Assembly: GCF_040730185.1 (NCBI RefSeq)
Contig: NZ_CP160402.1
Location: 8,060,001 to 8,124,000, forward strand
From: Streptomyces sp. Je 1-332
GTDB taxonomy: Bacteria; Actinomycetota; Actinomycetes; Streptomycetales; Streptomycetaceae
Direction of reading: 5' to 3'
Length of the DNA stretch: 64,000 bases
The position numbers and the translations under genes are program-made. The notes under the pieces are model-generated. The model saw only the letters and a program-made list of their open reading frames with translations, searched no databases and was not told the origin of the DNA. Positions 23,276-42,644 of the stretch are shown here, in pieces; position 1 is the first letter of the stretch; every line of letters begins with the position of its first letter.

Positions 23276-24922
23276 TCACACGGTGATCGCGCCGTCCGAC
23301 GCCGAGCCGACGGCAGCCGCGTACTTGCTGAGGACGCCGCGTTCGACCGTGCGGTCCGGGCGGGTCCAGCGCGCCCGGCGCTCCGCGAGTTCCTCGGCCG
23401 GGACGTCGAGGTCGAGCGTGCGGCGCGCGGAGTCGACGACGACCGTGTCACCGTCCGCCACCAGCGCGATGGGGCCCCCGTGCCACGCCTCGGGGGCGAC
23501 ATGGCCGATCACGAGGCCGCGGGAGACGCCGCTGAAGCGTCCGTCGGTGACCAAGGTGACCGATTCCCCGAGGCCCTGCCCGACCAGGGCGCCGGTGATC
23601 GACAGCATCTCCCGCATGCCCGGACCGCCCGCCGGGCCCTCGTAGCGGACGATCACCACGTCGCCCTCCGTGATCCGGCCGCCCTGAATGGCCTCGAAGC
23701 ACTCCTCCTCGGAGTCGAAGACCCGGGCCGGGCCCTGCCGGACGAAGTCGGGGCGCCCTCCCAGCTTGAGCACGCAGCCGTCCGGAGAGAGCGAGCCGCG
23801 CAGGATCGCCAGTGCGCCCGCCGGTTTGACGGGGGACTTCACCTCGCGCACCACCGTCTGCCCCTCCGTCCCCACGGCGGTCGCGGCGATGTCCGCCGGT
23901 GAACGGCCGTCGATCAGGGTCACCGACTCGCGCAGCACACCGGCCTCCAGCAGCCGCGCCGCCACCAGCGAAGTGCCGCCGGCCCGCCACAGATCCGCCG
24001 CCGTGTGGGGTCCGGACGGCTTCAGCGCGGTGATGATCGGCACCTCACGGCACACCGTGCCGATCGTGTCGATGGAGAGGTCGATGCCGGCCTCGCGGGC
24101 GATGGCCAGCAGATGCAGTACGGCGTTGGTGGAACCGCCCATGGCGGCCACGGAGACGATCGCGTTGTGGAAGGCGTCCTCGGTCAGGATCGAGGAAGGC
24201 CGCAGACCGCGGGCCAGCGCATCGAGGGCGATTTCGCCCACACGTTCGGCCGCGGCGGTCTTCTCCCCGGCCGTGGCCGGAATGTCGCCGACGCCGAACG
24301 GTGCGAGGCCGAGGAAGTCCGCGACGGTGCCCATCGTGTTCGCGGTGTACTGCGCCGCGCAGGTTCCGGCACCCGGGCAGGCGTGCCGGGCCAGATCGTC
24401 CACGTCATCCTGGCTGACGCGGCCGACGGCCCGCTCGCCGAGGGCCTCCCACATGTCCTGGATGGTCACCTCGCGCCCACGCCACGTACCCGGCATCATG
24501 CTGCCGCTGTAGAGGAGCACGGAAGGGATGTCGAGGCGCGCCATGGCCATCATCGCGGCCGGCACCGTCTTGTCGCAGCCGACGATGCAGACCATGGCGT
24601 CGAACTGATGGGCCCGCCCCATGAGTTCGATCGAGTCCGCGATGACTTCGCGGCTGACGAGCGAGGCCCGCATGCCGGGCGTACCCATCGTCAGGTTGTC
24701 CGAGACGGCGATGGTGTTGAACTCCATGGGTGTCCCGCCCGCCCGGCGCACACCGGTGGCGACATGACGTGCCAGGTCACGGTGCGTGAGGTTGCACGGC
24801 ATCGTCCCGGTCCAGGTCGAGGCGATACCGACGGTGGGCTGTCGCATCTCCTCCTCGGTCAGGCCCATCGCGTACAGGTGTGAGCGGGCCGGTGCGCGGT
24901 CGGGATCGTCGGCGATGTTCAT
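23276..24922 (-). CDS. IlvD/Edd family dehydratase (dihydroxyacid or sugar-acid dehydratase)
   Basis: A 548-residue iron-sulfur dehydratase. Cluster-ligand cysteines lie in '[10 protein letters not shown]', '[15 protein letters not shown]' and '[16 protein letters not shown]'. The C-terminal beta-barrel has '[22 protein letters not shown]'-type sequence. The length fits IlvD or sugar-acid dehydratases such as arabinonate or gluconate dehydratase. As the last gene of a sugar operon beside an FAH-family enzyme and far from other ilv genes, dehydration of an aldonic acid to a 2-keto-3-deoxy acid is more likely than branched-chain amino acid synthesis. GAAGGAG precedes the ATG. Confidence 0.85.
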
Positions 24923-24997: not shown

Positions 24998-25846
24998 TCA
25001 GCCGGTGACGTGGATCGGGTTGTGCAGGACGCCGAGCCCTTCGACCTCCACCTCCACGACGTCCCCGTCGGACAGCCACAGTTGCGGATCGCGGCCCATG
25101 CCCACGCCGTGCGGGGTCCCCGTGGCGATGACGTCCCCGGGATACAGCGTCATGTACCGGGACAGGTAGGCAATGGTCTCGGCCACGCCGAAAATCATCT
25201 CCTTGGTCGAACTGTTCTGCACCGTCCGGCCGTTGACGCGGGCGCAGATGGCCAGGCCCTGCGGGTCCGGCACGTCGGAGGCGGTGGCGATCCACGGGCC
25301 GAGCGGGCAGAACCCGTCGAAGTTCTTGCCCCGGAACCACTGCCCGTCGGAGAACTGGGCATCCCGTGCCGACACGTCGTTGGCCACGGTGTAACCGAAG
25401 ACGTACGACATGGCGTTCTCCGCGCTCACCTCGCGCGCCGTGCGGCCGATGACGACGGCCAGCTCGGCCTCCCAGTCCAGCTGCTCGGTGGTGCCACGCG
25501 GCACGCGGACGGTGGCCTGGGGGCCGGTCAGGCAGTGGGCGGTCTTGACGAAGGCAAGCGGGACCTCCGGTGTCTGGAGACCGGTCTCGCGGATGTGGTC
25601 GGCGTAGTTCAGTCCGATGCAGACGATCTTCTGCGGAGCGGCAAGCGGGCTGAGGAGTTCGACGTCGGCGAGGGGCACCCCCGGCACGTCAGCACTCAGC
25701 ACTTCCTCGGCCCTACCGTCAGCGATCAGGTCGCGCACGGCGTCGGACATGTGCCGCTCGTCCTCCGCGACGACGGGAAACACTGTCCCGCCTTCCACAC
25801 GGGCCGCCAGGACCCGGCCCTCGTACCGTACTCGGGCAATCTTCAC
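24998..25846 (-). CDS. Fumarylacetoacetate hydrolase (FAH) family protein
   Basis: A 282-residue FAH-fold enzyme. Motifs: 'IVCIGLNYADHIRETG', the metal-binding 'DWEAELAVVIGRTAREVS', 'GYTVANDVSARDAQ', 'GKNFDGFCPLGPWI' and 'YPGDVIATGTPHGVG', all diagnostic. Members cleave or dehydrate 2-keto acids, including 2-keto-3-deoxy sugar acids. The GTG start at 25846 has GGAG five bases upstream. With the adjacent IlvD-like dehydratase it suggests an oxidative branch: aldonic acid to 2-keto-3-deoxy acid to smaller products. Confidence 0.9.
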   Translation of the reverse strand: MKIARVRYEGRVLAARVEGGTVFPVVAEDERHMSDAVRDLIADGRAEEVLSADVPGVPLADVELLSPLAAPQKIVCIGLNYADHIRETGLQTPEVPLAFVKTAHCLTGPQATVRVPRGTTEQLDWEAELAVVIGRTAREVSAENAMSYVFGYTVANDVSARDAQFSDGQWFRGKNFDGFCPLGPWIATASDVPDPQGLAICARVNGRTVQNSSTKEMIFGVAETIAYLSRYMTLYPGDVIATGTPHGVGMGRDPQLWLSDGDVVEVEVEGLGVLHNPIHVTG

Positions 25847-25920: not shown

Positions 25921-27300
25921 TCAGGAGAAGCGGGGCAGGAAGCGGCTCTGGGCCTGCAGCAGGTCGTCCGTCAGGGCGGCGGCCGCGTCCCGGCCGGTGA
26001 CCGCGCCGTCGGCGATCACGGCCTCGACCACCATGTCGCGATCGCCCGTCATCGCGGCCTCGACCGCCAGCTCCACGGGCGCGAGGCGCCGGGCGAGGAT
26101 CGCGGTCAGCGGGGCCGACAGGTCCGGGACCCGCAGCTGACGCAGCCCCCGCGCGGTGGCCACAGCCGGAATCTCCAGGGCGGCCCCGTCGGGCAGGCCC
26201 GGCACGCTGCCCCGGTTGGGCACGTTCACCGAGAACATCTCCCGCCGGTCGAACGTGATCGACCGGATGATCGCGAGGAGCTGCTCCTGCTCCCCGGTGG
26301 AACGGTCGAACGCGGACTCGTCCAGCGACGCGCCCCCCTCGGCCTGGGCGCGCATCGACTGGTAGCGCTCCTCGCCCCACGCGAGGATCTCCGGTACGGA
26401 GAAGGCGTCGACGCCCAGCTTCTTGCCGTAGTAGTCACCGCCCGCCCAGCGCTCGGGAAAGAACTCCACGACGTGCCGGTCGTTGGCCGCGGGGTACGCG
26501 CCGTAGGTGCGGAAGAACTCCCAGGAGAACGGGTTGTGCCACGCCTTGCCGTTCTCCCAGATCGCGCCGATGTCGGCGGGGTCGGCCGGCTCGGCGAGTT
26601 CGCGTTCCATCCGTGCGCGCACGACGGGCCAGGCGTCTTCGCCGTTGTGCCGGAAGTCGTAGATGAACGTGAGGTGGTTGATCCCCGCATACAGCGTCGA
26701 CGTCTCCTCGAAGGGCAGCCCGGCGAAGGCGGCGAGCTCCCGCTGCACGTGGTGCATCCCGTGGCACAGGCCGATGACCTCCGCGCCCGCGTGGCGTGTC
26801 ATGGCCTGGATGTTGGCCGTCATCGGATTGCTGTAGTTGAAGAAGTAGGCGTGCGGGGCGAGTTCGACGACGTCGCGCGCGATGTCGACCATGACGGGCG
26901 TGGTGCGCAGCACTCGGGAGATCCCGCCGGGCAGCACGGAGTCGCCGACCGGCTGGAAGACGCCGTGCCGCTGGCAGATCTCGTGGTCCGTCTGCCAGGC
27001 GGGCCGGCCGCCGACGCCCACGCAGGTCACGACGTAGTCCGCACCGGGCAGTTCGCTGCGCCGGTCGGATGACGAGCGCACGGTGATGCGCTTCTCGGCG
27101 CCCCGTGCCTCGACCATGCGCTCGGCGAGGCGGGTGGTGACCGAGAGCGCCTCGGGATTGACGTCGACGAGCCGGATCTCCCAGGAGCCCAGGTCGTCCG
27201 CGCTGATCAGATCGGCGAGCACGCCGCGGGTGAAGACGGCGCTGCCGGCCCCGATGAGCACGAGGGAGCGGCGGTCGGAGTTGCTGACGGGCACGAGCAT
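25921..27300 (-). CDS. GH4 family glycosidase (alpha-glucosidase/alpha-galactosidase-like)
   Basis: A 459-residue GH4 enzyme. It starts with the NAD-binding motif 'LVLIGAGSAVFTRGVLADL', then 'YVVTCVGVGGRPAWQTD', 'YFFNYSNPMTANIQAM' and 'VIGLCHGMHHVQRELA', where Cys and His bind the divalent metal, and 'YAGINHLTFIYDFRH'. GH4 enzymes split glycosides by NAD-dependent oxidation-elimination rather than ordinary hydrolysis; some act on phosphorylated sugars, others on free alpha-glucosides, alpha-galactosides or glucuronides. No signal peptide, so it acts on imported oligosaccharide. GAAAGGA precedes the ATG. Confidence 0.92.
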   Translation of the reverse strand: MLVPVSNSDRRSLVLIGAGSAVFTRGVLADLISADDLGSWEIRLVDVNPEALSVTTRLAERMVEARGAEKRITVRSSSDRRSELPGADYVVTCVGVGGRPAWQTDHEICQRHGVFQPVGDSVLPGGISRVLRTTPVMVDIARDVVELAPHAYFFNYSNPMTANIQAMTRHAGAEVIGLCHGMHHVQRELAAFAGLPFEETSTLYAGINHLTFIYDFRHNGEDAWPVVRARMERELAEPADPADIGAIWENGKAWHNPFSWEFFRTYGAYPAANDRHVVEFFPERWAGGDYYGKKLGVDAFSVPEILAWGEERYQSMRAQAEGGASLDESAFDRSTGEQEQLLAIIRSITFDRREMFSVNVPNRGSVPGLPDGAALEIPAVATARGLRQLRVPDLSAPLTAILARRLAPVELAVEAAMTGDRDMVVEAVIADGAVTGRDAAAALTDDLLQAQSRFLPRFS

Positions 27301-27425: not shown

Positions 27426-28361
27426 TCATGCGTTCAGAGGTTCACCGGCGAGCCGGGCTGCCAGCAGAGCCGCGCCGTTGACGGGAGCGCCCAGTGGCGG
27501 CCGGGCGTCGTACGGCTCCGGGAAGGCGGTCAGAGCGCGGGTGAACGCCTCACGCACGCGCGGGACGGTGAACACCCCACCCGACCAGGAGACGGGAACT
27601 TTCTCGTCGGGCGCGGCGCTGAGCGCGCGCCGGGCGGCGCGGGCGAGTTCGGCCAGCTCTTCCCCCGCCCGGGTGAGGATGCGCGCGCAGTGCGTGTCAC
27701 CCTCCGCCGCGGCTTCGGAGACGTGGCGGCTCACCGCGGCGACGGCGGTGCGGTCGGGCCGGCCCAGGAGCATGACGTCGACGAGGTCCAGGTCGGTGTC
27801 GAGACCGAGACGGCGCCGAAGGACCGCGAGGAGGGGGCCTGGAGGTGTCCGGCCGTCGCTCATGCGCGTGAAGAGGTTCAGCGCTTGGACCGCGATCCAG
27901 TGCGCCGAGCCCTCGTCACCGAAGAGCTCCCCCCAGCCGCCGGTGCGCGCTTCCCGTCCGCGCAGGACGCCGTACGCCATCGAACCCGTACCGCTGATCA
28001 CGTTGATGCCGTCCGCGAGACCGAGCGATCCGGCCCAGCCGCACACCATGTCGTTGCCCACCGCGAACCGGTCGTGCCCGAGGATCTGCTCGGGCAGCGC
28101 GTCCAACGCGGCGGACAGGGACGGGGACTCACCGTGGCCGGGCAGCCCGAAGAACGCGTGACGCAGCCGCATGGGCTCGGTGCCCGCCAGCCGACAGACC
28201 TCTGTGATGCCGTCGCGCAGCACGGCCTGCGCGGTCTCCAAGCCGTGCTCCCCGAGCGCGGGAGCGGTGGACGGCCCGTCGGCCGCGCCGAGCACCGTCC
28301 CGGCGGCGTCCACGATGACGAAGGCCGTCTTCGTGCCGCCGGCGTCAACTCCGAGATACAT
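27426..28361 (-). CDS. BadF/BadG-type sugar kinase (N-acetylglucosamine kinase-like)
   Basis: A 311-residue ASKHA-fold kinase. The N-terminal phosphate loop 'MYLGVDAGGTKTAFVIVD' and the second 'INVISGTGSMAYGVLRGR' are both present, followed by 'GGWGELFGDEGSAHWIA', typical of N-acetylglucosamine kinases of the BadF/BadG/BcrA family. It would phosphorylate a hexosamine released by the GH4 enzyme. ATG at 28361 was chosen because the frame upstream belongs to the SIS gene region. It lies between GH4 and the AgaS-like gene with gaps of 74-125 bp. Confidence 0.9.
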   Translation of the reverse strand: MYLGVDAGGTKTAFVIVDAAGTVLGAADGPSTAPALGEHGLETAQAVLRDGITEVCRLAGTEPMRLRHAFFGLPGHGESPSLSAALDALPEQILGHDRFAVGNDMVCGWAGSLGLADGINVISGTGSMAYGVLRGREARTGGWGELFGDEGSAHWIAVQALNLFTRMSDGRTPPGPLLAVLRRRLGLDTDLDLVDVMLLGRPDRTAVAAVSRHVSEAAAEGDTHCARILTRAGEELAELARAARRALSAAPDEKVPVSWSGGVFTVPRVREAFTRALTAFPEPYDARPPLGAPVNGAALLAARLAGEPLNA

Positions 28362-28435
28362 GGCGTCACTTCTCTCCGATGGGTCCAGGTCTGGTGCTGT
28401 GTCCGGCGTCCTGCTCAGAGCGTCGTCAGGGGATC

Positions 28436-29602
28436 TCAGCGCGCCGGCAGGGGGTGGATCGTGACGCCCTGGACGACCCGGTTGACCTCCCCGTCGGGGA
28501 AGGGATTGTCGGGCCGCATGCCGCAGGCCAACGAAGCTGCCAGTGCGATGAGTTGGGCGCACAGCACGGCGGGCAGTGCCAGCGCGGCGTCCTCGGCCTC
28601 GGCCATGCCCTCCAGGAGCCAGGTGTGTTCGGCCGGGAGCCCGTCGGGCCGGGCGGCGACGGCCACCACCTGGCCGGCGGGCAGGGCGCCGCTCAGCTCC
28701 CGGAAGATGTCCAGGTCGTACTGGCGCGTGTAGGGGTTGTTCGACACATAGACGATGGCCGCCGTGCGCTGGGTGAGGAACGCCTTGGGGCCGTGCCGGA
28801 AGCCCAGCGACGATTCGGGCAGAGCGGTGACCGCGCCTCCGGTCAGCTCGAGCAGCTTGAGCGCGGACTCGCCGGCGAGGGCTTGCAGCGCGCCACTTCC
28901 CAGGTAGACGAAACGGTCCGGAGCGCGATCGGTCAGTTCCGCGATCCTTGCGGGCACATCGCCGGACAGCAGGGCCCTGGCCGCGGCGGCGCAGTCCTCC
29001 AGCCCTTGGACGTGGCTGCCGCCCAGCGCACTGAGCGCCCCGAGGAGCATGCACGTCAGGCTGGAGGTCATCGCGAAGCCCTGGTCCTCGGCCTCCGGCG
29101 GCGTCTGGAGCACGTAGGAGTCGGCGCGGTCCCGATGCCGGGCGGCCAGGGCGCCGTCCGCGTTGCACGTGATGACGAGGTGGGCACAGTGGTCGAGCAG
29201 CCGATCGGCGATCTCGGTCGCCGCGATGCTCTCGGGGCTGTTGCCGGAGCGAGCGAAGGACACCAGCAGGGTCGGCCGGTCGGGCTCCTCGAAGCATGTG
29301 TCGGGGTGGGCCGTGATGTCCGTCGTGGCGACGGCCTCGACCGCGCGGCCCGTCGCTCGCGCGAGGGCCGACCGTGCGATCTGCCCCGCGTAGGCGGAGG
29401 TCCCCGCGCCCGTGAGGACGATACGCAGCCGTGCCTCAGCGAGCAGGGGGGCGAGGAACACGTCGAGTGCGGAGTGTTCCTGCGTAAGGCGGGAGTCCAT
29501 CTCGGCCCACAGGCGCGGTTGTTGGAGGATTTCGCGGTGCGTGTGGGCGGCGCCTTGCGGCACGGACGGGCCCTCGGTGGTTTCGGGGACGGCGGTCTTC
29601 AC
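28436..29602 (-). CDS. SIS-domain sugar isomerase/deaminase (AgaS-like)
   Basis: A 388-residue protein with two SIS domains. The first has 'RIVLTGAGTSAYAGQIA' and 'LLVSFARSGNSPESIAA'; the second has 'RFVYLGSGALQALAGESALK' and 'ESSLGFRHGPKAFL', the phosphosugar-binding signature of the AgaS and GlmS isomerase family. AgaS converts galactosamine-6-phosphate to tagatose-6-phosphate with release of ammonia, so a hexosamine-6-phosphate deaminase role fits the nearby kinase and class II aldolase. GTG start at 29602 with AAGGAG five bases upstream. Confidence 0.88.
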   Translation of the reverse strand: MKTAVPETTEGPSVPQGAAHTHREILQQPRLWAEMDSRLTQEHSALDVFLAPLLAEARLRIVLTGAGTSAYAGQIARSALARATGRAVEAVATTDITAHPDTCFEEPDRPTLLVSFARSGNSPESIAATEIADRLLDHCAHLVITCNADGALAARHRDRADSYVLQTPPEAEDQGFAMTSSLTCMLLGALSALGGSHVQGLEDCAAAARALLSGDVPARIAELTDRAPDRFVYLGSGALQALAGESALKLLELTGGAVTALPESSLGFRHGPKAFLTQRTAAIVYVSNNPYTRQYDLDIFRELSGALPAGQVVAVAARPDGLPAEHTWLLEGMAEAEDAALALPAVLCAQLIALAASLACGMRPDNPFPDGEVNRVVQGVTIHPLPAR

Positions 29603-29725: not shown

Positions 29726-30937
29726 TCACATCTGCTGTTGCTCACGCATGCCCCAGGGGGCGCCGTACTCCGCGAGCAGTCCGAGGAAGGGCTCGGCGGG
29801 CAGCGCCTCGGGCCCGAGGACGCCGCTGCCCTTCCACTGCCCGCCCGAGAGCAGTTCGAGAGCGACCACCGGGTTGAGAGCGGTCTGCCAGACCACCGCC
29901 TGGGAGCCGTACTCCGTCATCGACCACTCGTTGTCGACCACGTGGTACAGGTACACCTCGCGGGGAGCGCCGTCGCGGACGCCCTTCACCCAGGTCCCGG
30001 CGCAGGTCTTGCCGCGCATCCGGTCACCGAGGCCGGCCGGGTCCGGCAGGCAGGCGGCGACCACGTCACGCGGGGAGACCTCCAGGTCGCCGACGCGCAC
30101 CTTGTCCGTGCGGTCAAGGCCCAGTTTGTGCAGCGTGCGCAGGACGTCGATGAACTCCTGCCCGAGCCCGTACTTGAAGGTCACGCGCCGGGCGTCCACC
30201 CATCGCGGGATGAGCAGAACCTCCTCGTGCTCGACATTGACGCACTGCACTTCGCCGATCCCCTCCGGGAAGTCGAAGACCTCCGGCTCGGAGAACGGCT
30301 CGGTGGTGAACCAGCCGCGTTCCTTCTCCCACACGACCGGCGGGTTCAGACATTCCTCGATCGTCGTCCAGATGGAGAAGGATGGCGCGAAGTCGTGCCC
30401 ATCGACGGTCAGATTGGCGCCGTCGCGTACGCCGATCTCGTCGATGGTGTCGAAGAGGTGGTCGGCGGCGTAGCGGGCGAACACGTCGGAGAGGCCGGGC
30501 TCGACGCCCATGCCCACCAGGGCGAGGCGGTCGCTGCTCTCCCACGCGGTGGCCAGAGCGAACTGCTCGTCGCCGAGCATGACGCCGGTCCGGGAGTACG
30601 GGTGGTCGGGGTGGGGCCGGGAGAGCGACATCGCCATGTCGAGGTAATGAATGCGAGCGGCCAGCGCCGCGCGGAACAGCGGCATGACGAACCGCGGATC
30701 CGTCGCGTTCAGGAGCACGTCACAGCGGTGCCGGCGCAGCAGGTCGGCGACCGCCTCTTCGTCCGAGGCGTCGACGCGGGCAGCGACGAAACGCGCGTCC
30801 TCGGTGGCTTCGGCCGCCCGCACGGCCCGGTCGAGCACGTAGTCGGCCACCACGCAGTGCTCGAAGAAGTCGCGTCGGGCGGCGATCCCGGCCGCGGCCG
30901 TGCCCACGCCTCCGGCGCCGACGATGAGAATGCGCAT
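29726..30937 (-). CDS. Saccharopine dehydrogenase family oxidoreductase
   Basis: A 403-residue protein. It opens with a Rossmann fold 'MRILIVGAGGVGTAAAGIAA', followed by 'CDVLLNATDPRFVMPLFRA' and 'LALVGMGVEPGLSDVFARYA', characteristic of saccharopine dehydrogenase-like proteins including lysine-epsilon-oxidase and carboxynorspermidine synthase relatives. The substrate is unknown; in a sugar operon it may oxidise or reduce an amino or keto sugar derivative. Its 5' leader contains an 18-bp tandem duplication. Confidence 0.85.
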   Translation of the reverse strand: MRILIVGAGGVGTAAAGIAARRDFFEHCVVADYVLDRAVRAAEATEDARFVAARVDASDEEAVADLLRRHRCDVLLNATDPRFVMPLFRAALAARIHYLDMAMSLSRPHPDHPYSRTGVMLGDEQFALATAWESSDRLALVGMGVEPGLSDVFARYAADHLFDTIDEIGVRDGANLTVDGHDFAPSFSIWTTIEECLNPPVVWEKERGWFTTEPFSEPEVFDFPEGIGEVQCVNVEHEEVLLIPRWVDARRVTFKYGLGQEFIDVLRTLHKLGLDRTDKVRVGDLEVSPRDVVAACLPDPAGLGDRMRGKTCAGTWVKGVRDGAPREVYLYHVVDNEWSMTEYGSQAVVWQTALNPVVALELLSGGQWKGSGVLGPEALPAEPFLGLLAEYGAPWGMREQQQM

Positions 30938-32901: not shown

Positions 32902-33103
32902 GCGTGCGCGGGCCGTCCGCCGCACGCATCTGAGCCAACACACGCAGTTGAGCCATCGCACACATCCGAGTCACATTCCGGCAAGGATGAGCATCCCCAG
33001 TAAGCTGCCGGGGCGGCAGGCGGGCCACCGTCGGCCCAAGATGCCACGGGTGCCGAGGCCGAGCGGGGCGTCGGGACCATGTCGAGGGAAGAGAGACCAG
33101 GCC

Positions 33104-33862
33104 ATGCTGGGCGCCGAGCGAAGGAAGAGGCTGCTCCACGCGGTGCGCGCGGAGGGCGTCGCCCATGTGGGCACGCTCGCCGAGCGTCTGGACGTCAGTC
33201 CTTCGACCATTCGCAGGGACCTGTCCGCGCTGCAGTCCCAGGGCCTGCTGAACCGTACCCACGGCGGGGCAATGGCCGAGGCGGTCCAAGCGGACGAGGC
33301 GGACCGTCCCCAGCGCAGCGGATTCGCCTCCTGGGAGAAGAGCAAGCTGGCGAGCGCCGCCGTGGAGCACATCGCCCCCGGCGCCACGATCCTCGTCACG
33401 GGCGGCACGACCACCGCCGCGATGGTGCCGCTGCTCGACGGGATCGAGCGGCTGACCGTCGTGACCAACTCGCTCCATCTGGCCGGTGAGCTCGCCCAGT
33501 TCGAGGACATCAGTACCGTGGTGCTCGGTGGATACCTGCGCCACCGCGAGATGTCCCTGCTGGGTCACCTGACACGTCAGGCCCTTGAAGAGCTGCAGGT
33601 GGACGAGGCGTTCGTGGGCGCCTACGGCATCACGGGCGCCGGGATCAGCGGCGCGCACGTGGACGAGGCGGAGACCGACCGCTGGCTGCTCTCGCGCGTC
33701 CGGCGGGTCACGGCCCTGGTCGACGGATCGAAGTTCAGCCGCTCGGGACCCGTGCGGATCGCCCCCGCCGACCGGCTGTACCGGGTGATCACCGATGGCT
33801 CGGCGCCCGAGAACGAGCTGGGCGCGCTGCGCGCCGCCGGTGTGGACGTCGTGCAGGTCTGA
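33104..33862 (+). CDS. DeoR/GlpR family regulator 1
   Basis: A 252-residue DeoR protein. The N-terminal HTH 'AERLDVSPSTIRRDLSALQ' and 'LNRTHGGAM' are classic, as is the C-terminal sugar-phosphate sensing domain with 'ILVTGGTTTAAMVPLL', 'VVTNSLHLAGEL' and 'ALVDGSKFSRSGPVRIAP'. These regulators usually repress sugar operons until a phosphosugar binds. The ATG at 33104 was chosen by comparison with the family; upstream frame is not conserved. It is a good candidate to bind the GAGC repeats. Confidence 0.93.
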   Translation: MLGAERRKRLLHAVRAEGVAHVGTLAERLDVSPSTIRRDLSALQSQGLLNRTHGGAMAEAVQADEADRPQRSGFASWEKSKLASAAVEHIAPGATILVTGGTTTAAMVPLLDGIERLTVVTNSLHLAGELAQFEDISTVVLGGYLRHREMSLLGHLTRQALEELQVDEAFVGAYGITGAGISGAHVDEAETDRWLLSRVRRVTALVDGSKFSRSGPVRIAPADRLYRVITDGSAPENELGALRAAGVDVVQV

Positions 33863-34345: not shown

Positions 34346-34402
34346 ACAGGCATCAAGGCCCACGCGGCCGAATCTCCCCCCTGACGACGGAGGTTGTGCA
34401 CC

Positions 34403-35704
34403 ATGGCTGTCGGCAGACGAGCGCTCCTTGCCACCGCGGTGGCAGGCGCCGGAGCGGTCGGCATCGCCCGGCGCTCCGGCTTCTCGCCCTCGAACACGGG
34501 CTCGGCGGGAGCGGACACGCTCACCTTCTCGCTGTGGGGGAGCGACGGCGAGATCGCGGCCTTCCAGGCCCTGGCCCGTGCGTACGAACGCCGCCACCGC
34601 GGCATCCGGGTGCAGATCCGGATGGAGTCCTACCAGCAGATGTACACCAACATGGACGCGCTGCTCGCCGGCGGTCGGGCCCCCGACCTGTTCCGCTGCG
34701 ACTACGCGAACCTGGGGATGTACAGCGCCAGCGGCCAACTCCTCGACCTCAGCCCCTACTTCGGCGAGCAGGACCGCAAGGCCTTCCTGCCCGCTCTGTG
34801 GGAGGCCGTCTGCCACGAGGGCAAGCCGTACGCCGTCCCCCACCACACCGACACGACGGCGGTCCTCTACCGCAAGGACATGTTCCGCACCGCGGGGATC
34901 ACGTCCGTGCCCACCTCACTGGACGAGGCCTGGTCGTGGGACGAGTTCACCGAGATCTGCGCACGACTGCGCAAGAAACTGCACGGGGTCTATCCCTTCG
35001 TCTACGGCTGGCAGCAGGCCGGCGCGTTCCGCTGGCTGACATGGCTGTGGCAGGCCGGCGGCCGGATCCTTGACGAGAGCCGCACCGCACCGGCCATCGA
35101 ATCCGAAGCCGGACTGCGCGCCCTGCGCTTCACACAGGACTTCTTCCGGCAGGGCTTCGTCCCGCCCAACAGCTCGGTCAAGAGCGCCGCGTACCCCGAC
35201 CCGCTGTTCACCGCGGGCACCGTCGCCATGAGCTTCGCCGGCGACTTCCTGCTGCCGACCATCGACCCGGCGCTGAAGAAGGACCTGTACGGCGTCACCT
35301 ACCAGCCGCGCGGACGCCAGGCGGCCACCGACCTCGGCGGCAACGCCGTGGCCGCCACCCGCACCACCGAGAACCCCGAACTCGCCGCAGACTTCCTCAA
35401 GTTCCTCGCGAACGAGGAGAACATGGTCCGCTTCTGCGAGCAGTGCGTCGTGCTGCCCACCCGCCGCTCGCTGCTCAACCAGCATCTCGACTACGCGGTG
35501 CGGCCCGACCTCATGCCGGTGTACGCGGAGCAGGCCACGGTGCTCACCCCGGCCATGACCGAACAGATCGCCGTGCCCGGGTTCGGCCGCATCAACTCCG
35601 CGCTGCAGGACGAACTGGAAGCCGCCTTCGTCAACCGCCAGCCCGCCGACGTGACCCTGCGCAACATCGCCGCATCCACCCGGACCGCGCTGGCCTCCGC
35701 GTAA
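34403..35704 (+). CDS. Sugar ABC transporter solute-binding protein
   Basis: A 433-residue CUT1-type binding protein. The N-terminus 'MAVGRRALLATAVAGAGAVG' has a twin-arginine-like signal ('GRRALL') and no lipobox cysteine, unusual for a Streptomyces binding protein, so export by Tat is likely and the anchoring is unclear. The core has 'LTFSLWGSDGEIAAFQAL', 'LLAGGRAPDLFRCDYANLG' and 'GTVAMSFAGDFLLPTIDP', family hallmarks. GACGGAGG precedes the ATG by nine bases. It is first in the operon with two permeases. Confidence 0.92.
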   Translation: MAVGRRALLATAVAGAGAVGIARRSGFSPSNTGSAGADTLTFSLWGSDGEIAAFQALARAYERRHRGIRVQIRMESYQQMYTNMDALLAGGRAPDLFRCDYANLGMYSASGQLLDLSPYFGEQDRKAFLPALWEAVCHEGKPYAVPHHTDTTAVLYRKDMFRTAGITSVPTSLDEAWSWDEFTEICARLRKKLHGVYPFVYGWQQAGAFRWLTWLWQAGGRILDESRTAPAIESEAGLRALRFTQDFFRQGFVPPNSSVKSAAYPDPLFTAGTVAMSFAGDFLLPTIDPALKKDLYGVTYQPRGRQAATDLGGNAVAATRTTENPELAADFLKFLANEENMVRFCEQCVVLPTRRSLLNQHLDYAVRPDLMPVYAEQATVLTPAMTEQIAVPGFGRINSALQDELEAAFVNRQPADVTLRNIAASTRTALASA

Positions 35705-35733
35705 GGCCCTGTCCACCGCACCCAGGAGCTGCC

Positions 35734-36687
35734 ATGGCCACCATCGCCTCGTCGCCGCGCGACGTGCGCCCGACCACACCCGCGCCGGCACCACCCCCGC
35801 CGGGCGCCCGCAGAGCAGCGCGCTTTCGCGAGACCCTCGCTGCCTATTGCACGCTCGGACCGAACCTCGTCCTCGTCACCGTCTTCCTGCTGGTCCCGCT
35901 GGTCATGGCCGTCGTACTGAGCTTCCAGTACAGCACCGGGCTCGCCTCCCTGACCTGGGCAGGCCTGGCCAACTACCGCCAGCTGGCCGGTGATCCCGTC
36001 TTCTGGCGCACGGTCCTCAACACCGCGGTCTTCTGCGTGGCGACCGTACCCGTCGAGATGGCACTTGGGCTCGGCATCGCGCTGCTGTTCAACAAGGTGA
36101 TGCCCGCGCGCCCGCTGTGGCGCACCCTCGTCTACCTGCCCATGGTCATCTCCGGCGTGGCGACCGCCCTCATCGGAACCCTGATGTTCGACCAGAACAT
36201 CGGCCTGCTCAACAAGCTGCTCGCCACCCTCGGACTGCCTGCCGCCCCCTGGCAGACCAGCGGCAGCGCCGCCATGGCGTCCGTCGTGCTGATCACGCTG
36301 TGGATGCGGATCGGCTTCAACATGGTGATCTACCTGGCCGGTCTGCAGGGCATCTCACCCGAGATGTACGAGGCGGCCGAAGTGGAGGGCGCGGGCCCCT
36401 GGCAGCGGCTGCGCAACATCACCGTCCCGCTGCTGGGACCGTCCACGTTCTTCCTGCTCATCATGAACGTCATCTATTCGTTCCAAGTCTTCGACACCGT
36501 CTACGTGATGACCCTCGGCGGTCCTGGCCACGCCACCGACGTCATGATCACCTACGCCTACCGCAACGGCTTCGAAGGACGGCAGCAGGGCTACGCGGCC
36601 GCCATCGGCATCGTCCTGTACGTCATCGTCATGATCTTCACGGCGCTGCAGTGGCGCTTCAGCCGCAACAGGGACACGGTCGGCTGA
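35734..36687 (+). CDS. Sugar ABC transporter permease (MalF-like)
   Basis: A 317-residue permease with six helices. The inner-membrane EAA loop is 'EMYEAAEVEGAGPWQRLRNI', the docking site for the ATPase. It starts at the ATG 35734 after CAGGAG and follows the binding protein by 29 bp. No ATPase gene is present in the locus; in Streptomyces the shared MsiK ATPase usually energises such importers. Confidence 0.93.
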   Translation: MATIASSPRDVRPTTPAPAPPPPGARRAARFRETLAAYCTLGPNLVLVTVFLLVPLVMAVVLSFQYSTGLASLTWAGLANYRQLAGDPVFWRTVLNTAVFCVATVPVEMALGLGIALLFNKVMPARPLWRTLVYLPMVISGVATALIGTLMFDQNIGLLNKLLATLGLPAAPWQTSGSAAMASVVLITLWMRIGFNMVIYLAGLQGISPEMYEAAEVEGAGPWQRLRNITVPLLGPSTFFLLIMNVIYSFQVFDTVYVMTLGGPGHATDVMITYAYRNGFEGRQQGYAAAIGIVLYVIVMIFTALQWRFSRNRDTVG

Positions 36688-36731: not shown

Positions 36732-37613
36732 ATGTCCGTGACCTCCTCAGCCAGACGCCCCGGATCCCCTCCCCTAGCCCCCGCAGCGACACACCCGAGA
36801 CGACGCGACCGCCACCGTCCGCTGCGCGTGGCGGCAGCGGTGATCATCGGTCTGGCCATGGCCCTGCCCCTGTTCTGGATGATCCTGGTCGCCTTCTCGC
36901 CCATCGCGGACCTGCACACCTCGCAGCTGCGGTTCTGGCCGAGCGCACCGACCCTGGACAACTTCCGCCGCGTGTTCCGGCTGCCGGTGGGGACCTGGGC
37001 GATGAACTCGACCGTGATCACCTGCCTGGTCGTCCTGATCACGGTCTCCTGCAACCTGCTGGCCGGATACGCCTTCGCCAAGATGCGCTTCCGCGGCCGC
37101 AACCTGATCTTTCTGCTGTTGCTCAGCACCATGACCGTGCCGGTCCAGGTACTGATGGTGCCTCAGTTCAAACTCGTCAGTGCCATGGGCATGTTCGGCA
37201 GCTTCTGGGCCGTCATCGTCCCCGCCTCCTCCACCGCCTTCGGGGTCTTCCTCGCCCGGCAGTTCATGCTCGGCATCCCCGACGAAGTCATCGAGGCCGC
37301 GCGGATGGACGGCGCCGGACAGCTGCGCACCTTCTTCACCGTCGTCCTGCCGCTGTGCAAGCCGCTCATCGCGGTTCTCTCGCTGCTGACCTTCCTCTAC
37401 CAGTGGAACGACTTCGCCTGGCCGCTGACCGTCCTGAAGGACGAGCGGCTGTACACCCTCGCCGTCGGCATGCAGTTCGTCAACGGCCAGTACACCGCCG
37501 ACTACGGCGCCATCATGGCGCTCGCTCTCCTCTCCGTACTGCCCATGGTCGTTCTCTTCCTCTGCTTCCAGAAGTACTTCGTCCAGGGCTTCGCACGATC
37601 GGGAATCAAGTGA
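36732..37613 (+). CDS. Sugar ABC transporter permease (MalG-like)
   Basis: A 293-residue permease with six helices. The EAA loop 'DEVIEAARMDGAGQLRTFFT' and the C-terminal 'CFQKYFVQGFARSGIK' are typical of the MalG type. It lies 44 bp after the first permease. Its TGA overlaps the GTG start of the dehydrogenase gene, so the operon continues. Confidence 0.93.
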   Translation: MSVTSSARRPGSPPLAPAATHPRRRDRHRPLRVAAAVIIGLAMALPLFWMILVAFSPIADLHTSQLRFWPSAPTLDNFRRVFRLPVGTWAMNSTVITCLVVLITVSCNLLAGYAFAKMRFRGRNLIFLLLLSTMTVPVQVLMVPQFKLVSAMGMFGSFWAVIVPASSTAFGVFLARQFMLGIPDEVIEAARMDGAGQLRTFFTVVLPLCKPLIAVLSLLTFLYQWNDFAWPLTVLKDERLYTLAVGMQFVNGQYTADYGAIMALALLSVLPMVVLFLCFQKYFVQGFARSGIK

Positions 37614-38632
37614 CCTCTTCGTCCCCCGTCCACTACCTGAGCACTCTCTCCTTTCCCGACTGGTGGCTCGACGAGCTGCGCGCACGCCACCCGCGGCTCA
37701 GCGTCACCCAGATCCCCGCCACCTCCCCGAAGGACGTGCCCGAAGAGGTGTGGCGCCGGACGCAGATCCTGCACACCGGCGCCGTCTTCCCGGCCACCGA
37801 ACACCCGGCACCTGACCTGCGCTGGATCCAGCTGGACACTTCCGGCGCGGACCACCTGAAGGACACGGAGGTATGGGACCTCCCGGTGCCGCTCACCTCC
37901 ATCGGAGGCATCTCGCCCGTGCCCATGGCCGAGTACGTGCTGATGATGCTGCTCGGCCTCGCACATCGCCTGCCCCGCGCCATCGAGGTGCAGCACAGCG
38001 GCACGTGGCCCTCGCCCGCCGAACGCTGGAACACCCTCATGCCGCGCCGGTTGCGTGGCGCGACCGTCGGTGTCGTCGGCTACGGGCGCATCGGCCGCGA
38101 AATAGGCCGTCTCGCAGGCGAGTTCGGCATGACCGTGCTCGGCCTCAAGCGCGGCAGCGGACCACGGGCCGGTGAGTTCTTCGGAACGCCCGCCGACGAC
38201 TCACCGCAGCCGGCCGAGCTCTACACCCCGGACGCCCTCCACACGTTCCTGAGCCGCTGTGACTACCTCGTGGTCACCTGCCCGCTCACGGACGAGACGC
38301 GCGGCATGATCGACGCCGCGGCGCTCGACGCACTCAAGGACGGCGCGATGGTCGTCAACGTCTCGCGCGGCGGCATCGTCGACGAACACGCCCTGCGCGC
38401 TGGGCTCCGCTCGGGCCGCATCGCGGGAGCCGCCCTCGACGTCTTCGACGAAGAACCCCTGCCCGCGGACCACGCCTGGTGGAACGAGCCAGGAGTCATC
38501 CTGACACCGCACGTCGCCGGTTTCGCGCCGGACTACGAGGAGCAGACCCTCGAACTCGTCGGCTCGAACGTGGAGCGCTTCCTCGTGGGCCGGGATCTGA
38601 TCAACCTGGTGGACCGGTCCCGTGGCTACTGA
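37610..38632 (+). CDS. D-2-hydroxyacid dehydrogenase family protein
   Basis: A 340-residue NAD-dependent dehydrogenase. Rossmann motif 'TVGVVGYGRIGREIGRLAG' is near residue 150; the catalytic region has 'NVSRGGIVDEHALRAGL' (Arg), 'DVFDEEPLPADH' (Glu) and 'TPHVAGFAPDYEE' (His). The GTG start overlaps the permease stop as GTGA. In a sugar-uptake operon it would reduce a keto acid or oxidise a hydroxyacid derived from the sugar. Confidence 0.9.
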   Translation: MTSSSPVHYLSTLSFPDWWLDELRARHPRLSVTQIPATSPKDVPEEVWRRTQILHTGAVFPATEHPAPDLRWIQLDTSGADHLKDTEVWDLPVPLTSIGGISPVPMAEYVLMMLLGLAHRLPRAIEVQHSGTWPSPAERWNTLMPRRLRGATVGVVGYGRIGREIGRLAGEFGMTVLGLKRGSGPRAGEFFGTPADDSPQPAELYTPDALHTFLSRCDYLVVTCPLTDETRGMIDAAALDALKDGAMVVNVSRGGIVDEHALRAGLRSGRIAGAALDVFDEEPLPADHAWWNEPGVILTPHVAGFAPDYEEQTLELVGSNVERFLVGRDLINLVDRSRGY

Positions 38633-39395
38633 TCACCTGCTCGCCCCCCAGCGCCGGCACGCCGTGCTGACCTGGCTGCGACGCCGAGGCACGGTCAACG
38701 TCCAGGAACTGTCGGACCTGCTGCGCATCAGCGCCTCCACGGTCCGGCGCGACCTGCGCGACCTCGAACTGCAGGGCATGCTGCGCCGCGTACACGGCGG
38801 CGCAACCACCGTGGACGGCGCCTTCGAGCCGGACCAACCGCAGCGGGCATCCACCCAACCGGAGGAGAAGGGCCGGATCGCCGAAGCCGCTCTGCGCCTG
38901 ATCCCCGACCACAGCACCGTCCTCATCAGCGGAGGCACGACGACCGAGGCCCTCGCCGCCAGGCTGGGGGAGCGACGCGGCCTCACCGTGGTGACCAACG
39001 CCCTGCCGATCGCCCAAGTCCTCTCGGCCACCTCCAACGTCGACGTCATCGTGCTCGGCGGCATCCTGCGCCACCGGGAGCAGTCGCTCCTCGGCCACCT
39101 GACCGAGCACGCGCTGCACGAACTGCAGATCAGCCAGATCCTCACCAGCGCCTTCGGTCTCGACGACGACGCGGGACTCACCGGGGCCCACGTCGACGAG
39201 GCCCAGACCGACCGTGCCCTCCTGGCCGCCGCACGCAGCGTCGTCGTACTCGCCGACAAGTCCAAGCTGGGACGCCGCGGGCCGGTGCGCCTGGCACCGC
39301 TGGACCGCGTGGCCACCCTGGTCACCGACGCCGCTCCCGAACACCCCGTGTGCCGGGCCCTCGACAGCCGCAGCCGAACCGTCATCAGCGCCTGA
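38622..39395 (+). CDS. DeoR/GlpR family regulator 2
   Basis: A 257-residue DeoR protein, similar in plan to regulator 1: HTH 'SDLLRISASTVRRDLRDLEL', then 'LRRVHGGATTVDG', 'VLISGGTTTEALAARL' and 'VVLADKSKLGRRGPVRLAP'. The GTG start at 38622 overlaps the dehydrogenase gene by 11 bases. Two DeoR proteins in one locus suggest either paralogous repressors sharing GAGC sites or separate control of the two operons. Confidence 0.92.
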   Translation: MATDHLLAPQRRHAVLTWLRRRGTVNVQELSDLLRISASTVRRDLRDLELQGMLRRVHGGATTVDGAFEPDQPQRASTQPEEKGRIAEAALRLIPDHSTVLISGGTTTEALAARLGERRGLTVVTNALPIAQVLSATSNVDVIVLGGILRHREQSLLGHLTEHALHELQISQILTSAFGLDDDAGLTGAHVDEAQTDRALLAAARSVVVLADKSKLGRRGPVRLAPLDRVATLVTDAAPEHPVCRALDSRSRTVISA

Positions 39396-39440: not shown

Positions 39441-40289
39441 ATGCCCCTGGTCCCCACCGCCAGTCTGATGGACCACGCCGTACGCACGGATTCCGCGGTC
39501 CTCGCCTTCAACATCGTGACCCTGGAACAGGCCGAGGCCGTCGCCCAGGCCTGCGAGGCCGCGAAGTCACCGGCCATCCTCGCCGTCAGCCACAACGCGG
39601 TCCGCTACCACCGCGACGACCCCGCGCCGCTGCTCAGTGCCGCCGCGGCCATCGCCCGGCGCTGCGGTATGCCACTCGCCCTGCACCTCGACCACGTAGA
39701 GGACGAGGAGCTCGTGCTGCGCGCGCGGGAACTCGGCTGCGGCTCGGTCATGTTCGACGCATCACGGCTGCCGCACACGGAAAACGTCGCCAGGACGGCC
39801 GCCGTCACCGCACGCCTCCATGACGAAGGCATCTGGGTCGAGGCCGAGTTGGGCGAGATCGGCGGCAAGGACGGGGTCCACTCCGCCACGGCGCGCACGG
39901 ACCCCACCGAAGCCGCCGACTACGTACGCGCCACCGGAGTGGACGCGCTCGCGGTGGCGGTCGGCAGCTCCCACGCCATGACCGAACGCAACGCCTCGCT
40001 CGACCAGAACCTCATCGCCCGGCTGCGCGCGGCCATCGACGTGCCGCTCGTCCTGCACGGTTCATCCGGCGTGCCGGACCAGGAAATCCGGTCGGCGATC
40101 ACCCACGGCATGCGGAAAATCAACTTCGGCACGCATCTGAGCGCGGCCTTCACCCGGGCTGTCCGCATCGGCCTCGACGACTACAGCGGCGTGGACCCAC
40201 GGCGCTACCTCGCGGCGGGCCGCGAGGCGGTCGCACGCGCCACGGAACAACAGCTCCGCCTCCTCACCCCAGAGCCGGCCACCGCCTAG
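39441..40289 (+). CDS. Class II (zinc) aldolase, fructose/tagatose-bisphosphate type
   Basis: A 282-residue class II aldolase. Zinc-ligand regions are 'PLALHLDHVEDEELVLRARE', with the catalytic Asp, 'GIWVEAELGEIGGKDG', 'HGSSGVPDQEI' and 'GMRKINFGTHLS'. The pattern is that of GatY/KbaY tagatose-bisphosphate aldolases. With the AgaS-like isomerase and the kinase, it supports amino-sugar breakdown to triose phosphates, although no tagatose-6-phosphate kinase was found here. The stop falls in a 30-bp tandem repeat. Confidence 0.9.
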   Translation: MPLVPTASLMDHAVRTDSAVLAFNIVTLEQAEAVAQACEAAKSPAILAVSHNAVRYHRDDPAPLLSAAAAIARRCGMPLALHLDHVEDEELVLRARELGCGSVMFDASRLPHTENVARTAAVTARLHDEGIWVEAELGEIGGKDGVHSATARTDPTEAADYVRATGVDALAVAVGSSHAMTERNASLDQNLIARLRAAIDVPLVLHGSSGVPDQEIRSAITHGMRKINFGTHLSAAFTRAVRIGLDDYSGVDPRRYLAAGREAVARATEQQLRLLTPEPATA

Positions 40290-40409: not shown

Positions 40410-40739
40410 ATGACCAGTCCCGCGCCCCGCCATGAACCCGTCCCCGACCCTCGGGCGCTGCTCACCGCACTGGGCGAGCGGGTCCTCGAACGTGAGGGCA
40501 TCCCCATGATCCTGGCCCTGCAGGTTCCCTCACGCGACGGCAACCAGCAGTCAGAACCGGCACAGCCGGACCCCGAAGGTGAGGAACTCGCCGGGCTGCT
40601 CCGCCACTACCAGGGCACGCTCGCACCCGACGCGCCGGACGACGCCGAACCCTCCTTGATCGAAGTCCTCCAGCTCATGGGAGCAGTCCACTTCACACCC
40701 CCCACCGCCACCGCGCAGAAGGACGGGACCCAGCGATGA
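40410..40739 (+). CDS. Small protein homologous to the N-terminal domain of the downstream paralogue
   Basis: A 109-residue protein with no named family. It aligns well with the first 100 residues of the fused deacetylase-like protein on the opposite strand (41565-42644): 'LEREGIPMILALQVPS' against 'VNRRRGVPMFVSLRST', and 'EPSLIEVLQLMGAVHFTPP' against a similar 'EETVVRTLQALAYTSLGPH' segment. ACAGGAG precedes the ATG. Its stop overlaps the next start as ATGA, so it is made together with the deacetylase-like protein and is probably its partner subunit. Confidence 0.75.
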   Translation: MTSPAPRHEPVPDPRALLTALGERVLEREGIPMILALQVPSRDGNQQSEPAQPDPEGEELAGLLRHYQGTLAPDAPDDAEPSLIEVLQLMGAVHFTPPTATAQKDGTQR

Positions 40740-41440
40740 ACACCAACACCACCCCGCAGACCCGGCTCCCGTCCTTCTCCGTCCAGGAACAGGCCTTCCG
40801 CTCCGGCCAGTACCTGCGCGTGGTCAACTACCACAACACCCCGCACGCCGACAGGGACAAGATCCGCGGCGAACTGAAGGCTCTGGCCGAACACTTCTCC
40901 GCCGTCACCCTGGAGGATCTCGACCTGTTCCGGACCACCGGCCGCTGGCACAAGAGCCGCCCCGGCGTCATCCCGGTCTTCTACGAGGGCTACCGCAACA
41001 ACGCCGAGGTCGCCGCGCCCCTTGCCGAGGAGGCAGGTCTGACCGCCTGGTTCTTCATCTGCACCGCATTCCTGGACGTGCCCGTCGAGGACCAGTACGA
41101 GTACGCCAACGGGCACCACATCGATCTGGTGCAGGAAAACCGCGATGGCGAACGCCTCGCCATGACCTGGGACGACGTCGCGGAACTCAGCCAACGGCAC
41201 GTGGTCACCCCGCACACCGCCAACCACGCCGCGGCCGCCTCCCTGCACACCGGCCAGGACTTCGAGCGCGAGATCGCCGAGCCCAAACGCCGGATGGACG
41301 CGGTCACCGGCCAGGACGCCGCGTGCACGGCCTTCCTGTGGGGCACGCCGCACGGAGCGGACCCGGCGGTGGACGCGGCGCTGCGTGAGGCGGGCTACCG
41401 CTACCAGTTCGGCAACACCATGATCCAGTACATCGGGTAG
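40736..41440 (+). CDS. NodB-fold polysaccharide-deacetylase-like protein (split form)
   Basis: A 234-residue protein with no signal peptide, so cytosolic. The NodB-homology order is visible: 'QYLRVVNYHNTP', then 'PGVIPVFYEGYRNNAEVAAP', 'EEAGLTAWFFICTAFLD', 'WDDVAELSQRHVVTPHTANH' and 'REAGYRYQFGNTMIQ'. Motif 2 (HTxxH) is intact. Motif 1, normally TFDDG with the catalytic and metal Asp, reads VFYEG. This recalls PuuE-type (allantoinase) relatives more than true chitin deacetylases. It may cleave an N-acetyl or cyclic amide bond of the sugar substrate. Confidence 0.75.
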   Translation: MNTNTTPQTRLPSFSVQEQAFRSGQYLRVVNYHNTPHADRDKIRGELKALAEHFSAVTLEDLDLFRTTGRWHKSRPGVIPVFYEGYRNNAEVAAPLAEEAGLTAWFFICTAFLDVPVEDQYEYANGHHIDLVQENRDGERLAMTWDDVAELSQRHVVTPHTANHAAAASLHTGQDFEREIAEPKRRMDAVTGQDAACTAFLWGTPHGADPAVDAALREAGYRYQFGNTMIQYIG

Positions 41441-41481
41441 CGGGGCTCGGCAGGAGACGGGGCAGCGGGACGCGGCCAGCG

Positions 41482-41519
41482 GGACTGCGGGGCGGCACAC
41501 GCGTGCCGCACCGCAGTCC
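41482..41519. terminator. Bidirectional hairpin between the convergent deacetylase-like genes
   Basis: GGACTGCGGGGCGGCAC (41482-41498) pairs with GTGCCGCACCGCAGTCC (41503-41519), with one G-A mismatch in 17 pairs and a four-base loop. It lies in the gap between the two convergent paralogues and can terminate both. Confidence 0.85.
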
Positions 41520-41527
41520 AGTTCCCT

Positions 41528-41563
41528 GCTCTCCGCGCTCTCCGCGCTCTCCGCGCTCTCCGG
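41528..41563. repeat. 9-bp tandem repeat, four copies
   Basis: GCTCTCCGC is repeated at 41528, 41537, 41546 and 41555 (the last ends in G). It ends two bases before the stop of the minus-strand gene. Confidence 0.85.
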
Positions 41564-41564
41564 A

Positions 41565-42644
41565 TCAGTCGGGCAGCCTCTGCACCATGGTGTTGCTGAA
41601 CACGAAGCGATAGCCGGCCTCGACCAGGGCCCGGTCGGCCGGCGATTCGCCCGTCCAGGAGGTGCCCTCCAGCCATGCGGTGCACAGCGCGGATCCGCCC
41701 GTGACGCGGTCCATCAGCCGCTTCGGCTCGACCACTTCACGCTCGATGTGCTCCTGCGTGAGCACCTTGCGGGCGAGGGCGTGGGAGGCGGTGTGCGGAG
41801 TGACCACATGGCCGCGCCGGTGCAGGTCGCCTATCTCGTCCCAGCTCATGGCGATGCGTTCACCGCGCGGGTTCTCCGGCACGAGCTTGATCCGGTGGGC
41901 GAGGGCGTAGTCGTACTGGGCCTCGGCGGGGGTGTCCACGAAGGCTGTGCAGACGAAGAACCAGCCGACGACCCCGGCCTCATCGCAGGCAGCCGCGGCG
42001 ACTTCGTAGTTGTCCCGATACCCCTCGTAGAAGACTGGCAGCAGCCCAGGGCGGGACTTGTGCCACACTCCCGTTCGCGAGAAGCGGTCGAGATCGGCGA
42101 CAGTGACTGTCTCGAAGTCCTCCGCGTAGCGGCGCAGTTCCGCCACCAGCTCGCCTTTCCAACTGGCCGGAGTGTTGTGGTAGTTCACCATGCGCAGGAA
42201 CTGGCCCGCACGCAGGTCGTCCGCCGTGTGCTCCGCGCTGACGCCCAACTCGGCCGACAACTCCCGACGCGAGCCGTGTGCGTGGCCCGGCGGCGGTGTC
42301 GGACTCGGAGTCGGAGTCGGAGTCGACGGTTGGGGTGGAACGCGGTGGGGCCCGAGGCTGGTATAGGCGAGGGCCTGCAGCGTACGCACCACTGTTTCTT
42401 CTTCTGTTTCTTCTTCAGCGTGCCCTTCGAGCTGATCGCGGTAGACGCAGAAGGCGTCGGCGAGTGCGGAGTCGTCGGACTGTGGGGGAGCAGGGGGTGG
42501 ATCGCTCGTTTCGGTACGCGGATCGCCGACGGGCGAAGTGGAACGCAAGGAGACGAACATCGGCACGCCCCGGCGTCGGTTCACCAGGTCCTGACTGGCC
42601 TCCAGGGCGTGGCGTGGACTGACCGAGGAGAGATGGTGCGGCAA
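41565..42644 (-). CDS. NodB-fold polysaccharide-deacetylase-like protein (fused form)
   Basis: A 359-residue paralogue of the two genes at 40410-41440. Residues 1-110 match the small protein; a Pro/Thr-rich linker ('STPTPTPSPTPPPG') follows; residues 140-359 match the NodB-fold protein. Motif 1 again reads VFYEG ('LLPVFYEGYRDNYEVA') and motif 2 is 'TPHTASHA'. It starts with TTG at 42644, with GAGGAG five bases upstream; an internal Met (MFVSLR) is possible. No signal peptide is visible. A GAGC-type operator lies about 90 bp upstream, linking it to the sugar regulon. Confidence 0.78.
   Translation of the reverse strand: MPHHLSSVSPRHALEASQDLVNRRRGVPMFVSLRSTSPVGDPRTETSDPPPAPPQSDDSALADAFCVYRDQLEGHAEEETEEETVVRTLQALAYTSLGPHRVPPQPSTPTPTPSPTPPPGHAHGSRRELSAELGVSAEHTADDLRAGQFLRMVNYHNTPASWKGELVAELRRYAEDFETVTVADLDRFSRTGVWHKSRPGLLPVFYEGYRDNYEVAAAACDEAGVVGWFFVCTAFVDTPAEAQYDYALAHRIKLVPENPRGERIAMSWDEIGDLHRRGHVVTPHTASHALARKVLTQEHIEREVVEPKRLMDRVTGGSALCTAWLEGTSWTGESPADRALVEAGYRFVFSNTMVQRLPD

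Follow-up and report, generated by a model that had tools for sequence, protein, structure and literature searches.

The accessible text of PMC10967932 describes NodB domains as self-sufficient and defines a NodB2 class (PgaB/IcaB/PplD) in which the His of motif 5 (MT5) comes from an N-terminal strand. According to the same text, the NodB allantoinase PuuE has lost the double Asp (DD) and one His and still catalyzes. Here we analyze a NodB2-type protein that is paired with a small partner protein, encoded in a 64-kb stretch of Streptomyces sp. Je 1-332 (NZ_CP160402.1, positions 8,060,001-8,124,000, forward strand; 8.06-8.12 Mb of a single 8.27 Mb contig). This stretch is the window, and its positions serve as coordinates. 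We report the homology of the split and fused forms of the pair, its conservation across phyla, repeated change between the two forms, a changed catalytic motif and a surrounding operon. Literature searches, largely at the level of titles and abstracts, returned no publication on this small protein/NodB pairing.

Split and fused forms of one pair

The locus comprises three open reading frames (ORFs; Table 1), located and oriented as a sequence-only reading of the window had placed them. A 109-amino-acid (aa) protein and a 234-aa NodB protein are encoded on the plus strand by genes joined through an ATGA overlap, and a fused gene faces them on the minus strand. The 359-aa product of the latter carries the expected Pro/Thr linker, PPQPSTPTPTPSPTPPP. 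Inspection shows a good Shine-Dalgarno sequence, GAGGAG, shortly before the start codon of the fused gene, a TTG at 42644. In the host genome, the 234-aa protein has two matches at E ≤ 0.001, both within the window.

The sequence-only reading had also proposed that the fused protein unites homologs of both split products, and this was borne out for each part. The 234-aa protein matches the C-terminal NodB domain with 57% identity over 214 residues (E 1e-87). For the small parts, the relationship is weak in pairwise alignment (34% over 50 residues, E 2e-5) and clear when profiles are compared. Using hhalign, with E-values that refer to single comparisons, 27 stand-alone small rows matched the N-termini of five Streptomyces fused proteins (98.2%, E 2.8e-14), four from a second, other actinobacterial fused group (98.1%, E 1.4e-13) and four from a distant actinobacterial family (96.1%, E 3.4e-9). 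The homology claim had been staked beforehand on profile similarity between the 109-aa protein and residues 1-110 of the fused protein, which the first of these comparisons provides. Chance likeness is ruled out by the three profile comparisons together with a control, in which the small-protein profile reached only 0.2% against the NodB profile. Conservation of the protein across three phyla likewise rules out a spurious ORF of high-G+C DNA.

The conserved core of the small domain reads R..LEREGIPMxLAL. No Pfam or NCBIfam family was found for the 109-aa protein, the sole Pfam row being a sub-threshold UBA_5 match (E 0.11), and three relatives had no Pfam family at E 0.1. Searching solved structures by sequence with the small protein gave one weak match (E 0.27).

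Distribution of the pair

A scan of public genomes yielded 43 loci, including three from Rhodobacterales and two from Firmicutes; with the window, 44 loci were compared. These are not independent, as they span 24 genus labels and include near copies. The scan patterns were LR[VM][VM]NYHN and [IL]PVFYEGY, which in part dictates the conservation of these motifs. Loci recovered with one pattern could vary in the other, and a profile search of 396 genomes required neither. By iterated hidden Markov model search, the small domain lies beside or is fused to a NodB gene in 43 of the 44 loci, drawn from Actinomycetota, Rhodobacterales and Firmicutes. In the sole locus without it (L055), the NodB ORF sits at a contig end, starting at base 181 of a contig beginning at base 1. 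Of the 50 small domains in the loci, 41 stand as ORFs of their own and 9 form part of a fused NodB protein. A 4-base start/stop overlap occurs in 30 of the 41 split pairs; in the other 11, the nearest NodB start codon lies -13 to +1 bases from the stop of the small gene. Gene order varies, with small, NodB, NodB in the three Rhodobacterales and NodB, small, NodB in an Oscillospiraceae locus. The regions concerned are 9339-10705 (L054), 9279-10636 (L056), 9279-10657 (L058) and 9932-11756 (L057). That two paralogs share one small protein in these four loci suggests a heteromer.

Among 295 Streptomyces genomes, 11 had any match, and 3 (the window included) had a strong pair, in each case as one split plus one fused copy; the weak matches of the other 8 (E 3e-6 or worse) look like generic NodB proteins. 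The profile search of 396 Actinomycetota genomes found NodB at E ≤ 1e-15 in 5, and the 7 strong small-domain places in this set are the 7 NodB places. Within the family of genome G554, 1 of 199 genomes carries NodB at E ≤ 1e-40. Small-domain matches away from NodB numbered 4 in the former set (E 3e-4 to 8e-4) and 2 in the latter (1.8e-4 and 4.1e-4); all are short and partial and were taken as chance. A plasmid search with the NodB protein alone returned one record, the Arthrobacter plasmid NZ_CP012478.1 (L074), which also carries the small gene (E 3e-25).

We placed 58 NodB domains, 13 of them from fused rows, on a tree that drew a long-branch warning, with the distant family among the long branches. 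Fused and split labels need 4 changes on this tree, and its starred branches force 4. In Streptomyces, the fused and split clades are sisters (joined at 100/96), and the fused copy therefore looks like a duplicate that arose locally. Other parts of the tree hold the fused rows L045/L051/L053, L059 and the distant family. The changes may be gains or losses of fusion, and an ancestral fusion with several splits would also fit the labels. In one of these loci, from Streptomyces sp. NP160 (L051), the ORF after the fused gene (10686-12017) resembles by eye what we take to be a SufS-type cysteine desulfurase. The claim that the small protein is a dedicated partner of NodB is strongly supported by the pairing in 43/44 loci, at least 4 split/fused changes, 30/41 overlaps and the coincidence of all 7 places, and the predicted structure suggests a physical basis for it.

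Active site of the NodB part

Both large proteins score above the gathering threshold of PF01522 (26.3 and 26.7 versus 23.1 bits), and the fold tested as NodB2. H33, the counterpart of the MT5 His in the NodB2 definition, is present in 54/54 NodB rows and corresponds to strand 149-155 of the fused model. Using the numbering of the 234-aa protein, R28, H33, H160 and H164 are invariant in 54/54 rows. Motif 2 (MT2), H(S/T)xxH, is thus intact, with both His in 54/54 rows and a Thr after the first His in 51/54. The PuuE-type replacement of the second MT2 His by Trp, which goes with a metal-free site, is not seen, as H164 is kept throughout. For the NodB protein, there was no match to the AgaA/NagA amidohydrolase family, only PF01522 and a sub-threshold Nha1_C.

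Motif 1 (MT1) has changed. The double Asp of CE4 enzymes, which supplies the catalytic base and a metal ligand, is replaced by FYEG (45 of 58 rows), FFDG (4), VFEG (3), FYNG (3) or LFEG (3); one of the two scan patterns contained FYEGY, and the profile search that yielded the FFDG rows did not require it. FFDG marks the distant family and VFEG the Firmicutes, while FYNG and LFEG belong to the two Rhodobacterales paralogs. Because the first Asp of FDDG is replaced in 58/58 rows (Tyr in 48, Phe in 10), the catalytic base is gone; the second position is Glu in 51, Asp in 4 and Asn in 3. At the place of the proline/arginine motif 3 (MT3), a WLxGxxxG-like segment stands instead of AYPYG, without a fixed proline in the rows shown. 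The designation "deacetylase-like" in the sequence-only reading therefore holds for the fold, with PF01522 above cut-off and PplD, PgaB and IcaB as nearest structures, and fails for the catalytic motif, with DD replaced in 58/58. The protein appears to be a little-known kind of NodB2 protein whose deacetylase label derives from its fold.

Predicted structures

The fused protein was modeled with a predicted local distance difference test (pLDDT) score of 90.5 and a predicted template modeling (pTM) score of 0.89, and PplD, PgaB and IcaB were its best structural neighbors. Within this model, the small domain consists of a helix, one strand and two helices. Since the strand is single, it should pair with the NodB barrel, and the model suggests that the small domain inserts it there. 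In its own model (pLDDT 78), the split small protein is without such a strand. It had no Foldseek match at E ≤ 0.001, an absence that carries no weight for a model of this middling quality.

Operon and neighboring genes

The genes around the pair (Table 1) encode sugar import, regulation and catabolic families, most of them below curated NCBIfam cut-offs. Judged by these families, the cassette seems to import and degrade an amino-sugar conjugate that includes a sugar acid. The AgaS-related gene has a saccharopine-dehydrogenase-like neighbor, which may hint at a conjugate of a sugar and an amino acid. The marker counts over the 44 loci are lower bounds, as only the covered stretch of each locus contributes: SIS proteins occur in at least 33, DeoR regulators in at least 30, substrate-binding proteins in at least 29, glycoside hydrolase family 4 (GH4) and class II aldolases in at least 26 each, PfkB in at least 21, IlvD/Edd and fumarylacetoacetate hydrolase (FAH) in at least 11 each and GatZ/KbaZ in at least 3. 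By these counts, 8 loci were without an enzyme marker; two of them, L017 and L019, do carry the aldolase, which leaves 6. One stretch of the Arthrobacter plasmid (5329-21346) holds SIS, kinases, aldolase, importer, dehydrogenase, regulator, the small and NodB genes, FAH, GH4 and IlvD/Edd. A Tn3-family transposase lies at 23492-26629 of the same plasmid. For two further conserved proteins of the cassette in the window, from 31022-32011 (cluster C9, 18/44 loci) and 32266-32901 (cluster C8, 22/44 loci), Pfam gave no family at E 0.001. In three lineages, a YcaO gene belongs to the same cluster; it directly precedes the NodB gene in L059 and four distant-family loci, and in L050 it lies upstream of the importer.

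Table 1. Genes of the window around the NodB pair, and YcaO-family genes at related loci (positions preceded by the locus)
Feature	Position	Strand	Remarks
Small partner protein, 109 aa	40410..40739	+	conserved R..LEREGIPMxLAL segment, then two helices (model); no Pfam/NCBIfam family
NodB2-type protein, 234 aa	40736..41440	+	NYHN (H33), FYEG (Y83 E84), HTxxH (H160 H164)
Fused protein, 359 aa	41565..42644	-	small domain, Pro/Thr linker (~residues 99-136, low pLDDT), NodB2 domain (137-359)
N-terminal small domain of fused protein	42315..42644	-	~residues 1-110
Class II fructose/tagatose-bisphosphate aldolase	39441..40289	+	
DeoR-family regulator	38622..39395	+	
D-2-hydroxyacid dehydrogenase	37610..38632	+	start chosen by inspection; ORF opens at 37355
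Sugar ATP-binding cassette (ABC) permease	36732..37613	+	assigned via cluster with other loci
Sugar ABC permease	35443..36687	+	via cluster; ORF limits, true start probably further in
Sugar ABC substrate-binding protein	34394..35704	+	
Second DeoR-family regulator	32948..33862	+	by similarity to the first
Saccharopine-dehydrogenase-like protein	29726..30937	-	best NCBIfam carboxynorspermidine synthase, below cut-off
SIS-domain protein, AgaS-family related	28436..29602	-	465.7 bits vs curated cut-off 529.2
BadF/BadG-type kinase-like protein	27426..28409	-	inside longer ORF 27426-29297
Glycoside hydrolase family 4	25921..27300	-	
FAH-family stretch	25019..25678	-	tblastn match limits
IlvD/Edd-type dehydratase	23291..24886	-	tblastn match limits, 35% identity
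YcaO-family gene	L067 7191-8693		Pfam
YcaO-family gene	L069 10537-12039		BLAST
YcaO-family gene	L070 160-1494		BLAST
YcaO-family gene	L068 7236-7892		BLAST
YcaO-family gene	L059 8130-9644		BLAST
YcaO-family gene	L050 4435-6219		BLAST

Proposed function and alternatives

We consider it fairly probable that the two parts make up an obligate NodB2 enzyme whose active site has been rebuilt and which acts on an imported amino sugar, a substrate and chemistry that we infer. One protein machine would be made as two pieces at 40410-41440 and, in its duplicate, as one piece at 41565-42644. The large piece is a NodB2-type barrel of the PgaB/IcaB kind, and the small piece is predicted to dock on it with the conserved GIPMxLAL-type strand beside the barrel strands, perhaps those at residues 149-155 or 347-356. 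Judging from the model, the small piece probably belongs to the barrel rather than acting as a loose regulator. The substrate would be a small sugar taken up by the importer, which the complex would meet in the cytosol. Most likely, an amino sugar would there lose an acyl group, or another group bound to nitrogen, ahead of the SIS (AgaS-like) step. Catalysis would rely on the retained pair of His together with the N-terminal His, the classical catalytic Asp having no part in it. We put forward more tentatively, as possible at somewhat less than even chance, a two-polypeptide (beta-alpha) barrel, in which an incomplete NodB2 barrel receives a strand in trans, the rebuilt site performs non-deacetylase chemistry and the parts have repeatedly been fused or split in at least three phyla.

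Several observations weigh against an obligate enzyme of amino-sugar catabolism. The covered stretch of 6 of the 44 loci, one of them a 4-kb contig, has none of the catabolic marker genes, and the window's SIS and kinase proteins match NCBIfam families below curated cut-offs. The docking comes from a single prediction made with a single alignment; the fused N-terminal domain and the split protein differ in sequence and alignment, so their comparison is not a clean control. The YcaO genes beside some loci are not explained by a plain deacetylase step. Finally, hydrolysis is not assured, because the MT1 base Asp is lost in 58/58 rows, and 54 of them have Glu or Asn in place of the metal Asp.

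This last point bears on how the NodB part would work. An ordinary metal-dependent N-deacetylase, with Glu as a metal ligand, another residue as the base and a small protein that only tunes substrate binding, would suit the PF01522 score, the nearest folds (PgaB/IcaB/PplD) and the amino-sugar style of the operon, but we think it unlikely, as the DD of MT1 is missing and the rows shown do not display AYPYG, the NodB2 consensus for MT3. Going by the motifs, the kept histidines and lost base Asp would be compatible with both an active enzyme of other chemistry and a pseudoenzyme. Another reaction on the sugar or the sugar-nitrogen bond (ring opening, lyase or isomerase), much as PuuE was recruited for allantoin, is a doubtful but serious candidate: the altered MT1, the adjoining saccharopine-dehydrogenase-like and SIS proteins and the YcaO genes adjoining in other lineages speak for it, and the retention of both MT2 His, unlike in PuuE, speaks against it. 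A pseudoenzyme, stabilized by the small domain and forming a complex that binds a sugar or a pathway enzyme to regulate or scaffold it, would account for the base lost in every row and a mostly altered metal Asp. Solved structures of CE4 pseudoenzymes are on record (entry titles of BA3943), and where a locus has two NodB paralogs, as in three Rhodobacterales and one Firmicute, one could be active and the other inactive. We nevertheless find it rather improbable, for both MT2 His and the N-terminal His persist in 54/54 rows, a retention over three phyla that argues for a working site, and PuuE, in the accessible text of PMC10967932, shows that the NodB fold can catalyze without the DD motif.

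Another alternative concerns the small protein, which could be an assembly factor or translational leader bound only transiently. Its gene lies just upstream of NodB and is probably coupled to it. Covalent fusion in 13/58 tree rows with at least 4 label changes would be needless for a transient factor, however, and the domain has a fixed place in the model, which makes this explanation very improbable.

Comparison with known systems

If our reading of an obligate two-part enzyme is true, this NodB branch, dependent on a separate small chain and altered in its catalytic motif, would add a new architecture to a large carbohydrate-esterase fold. It would demonstrate that one subunit of a barrel can donate a strand to another, and would point to an uncharacterized route of sugar catabolism in actinomycetes from soil and in bacteria from the sea. 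Current annotation of the NodB gene may mislead, because one annotated record names the large gene "polysaccharide deacetylase family protein" and the small gene "hypothetical protein."

The fold is common to PgaB and IcaB, the poly-beta-1,6-N-acetylglucosamine de-N-acetylases of NodB2 topology. In contrast to these enzymes, the proteins described here have the DD of motif 1 replaced, an obligate small domain, mostly catabolic operons and, by inspection, no signal peptide. PplD, a Streptococcus cell-wall de-N-acetylase, shares 12% identity, and its match covers residues 145-357 of the model only, not the small domain. The BA3943-type CE4 proteins have a NodB fold described as a pseudoenzyme in the titles of their structure entries. 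PuuE allantoinase is alike in that, in the accessible portions of PMC10967932 and PMC3084791, a NodB fold that has lost DD acts on a small molecule in catabolism.
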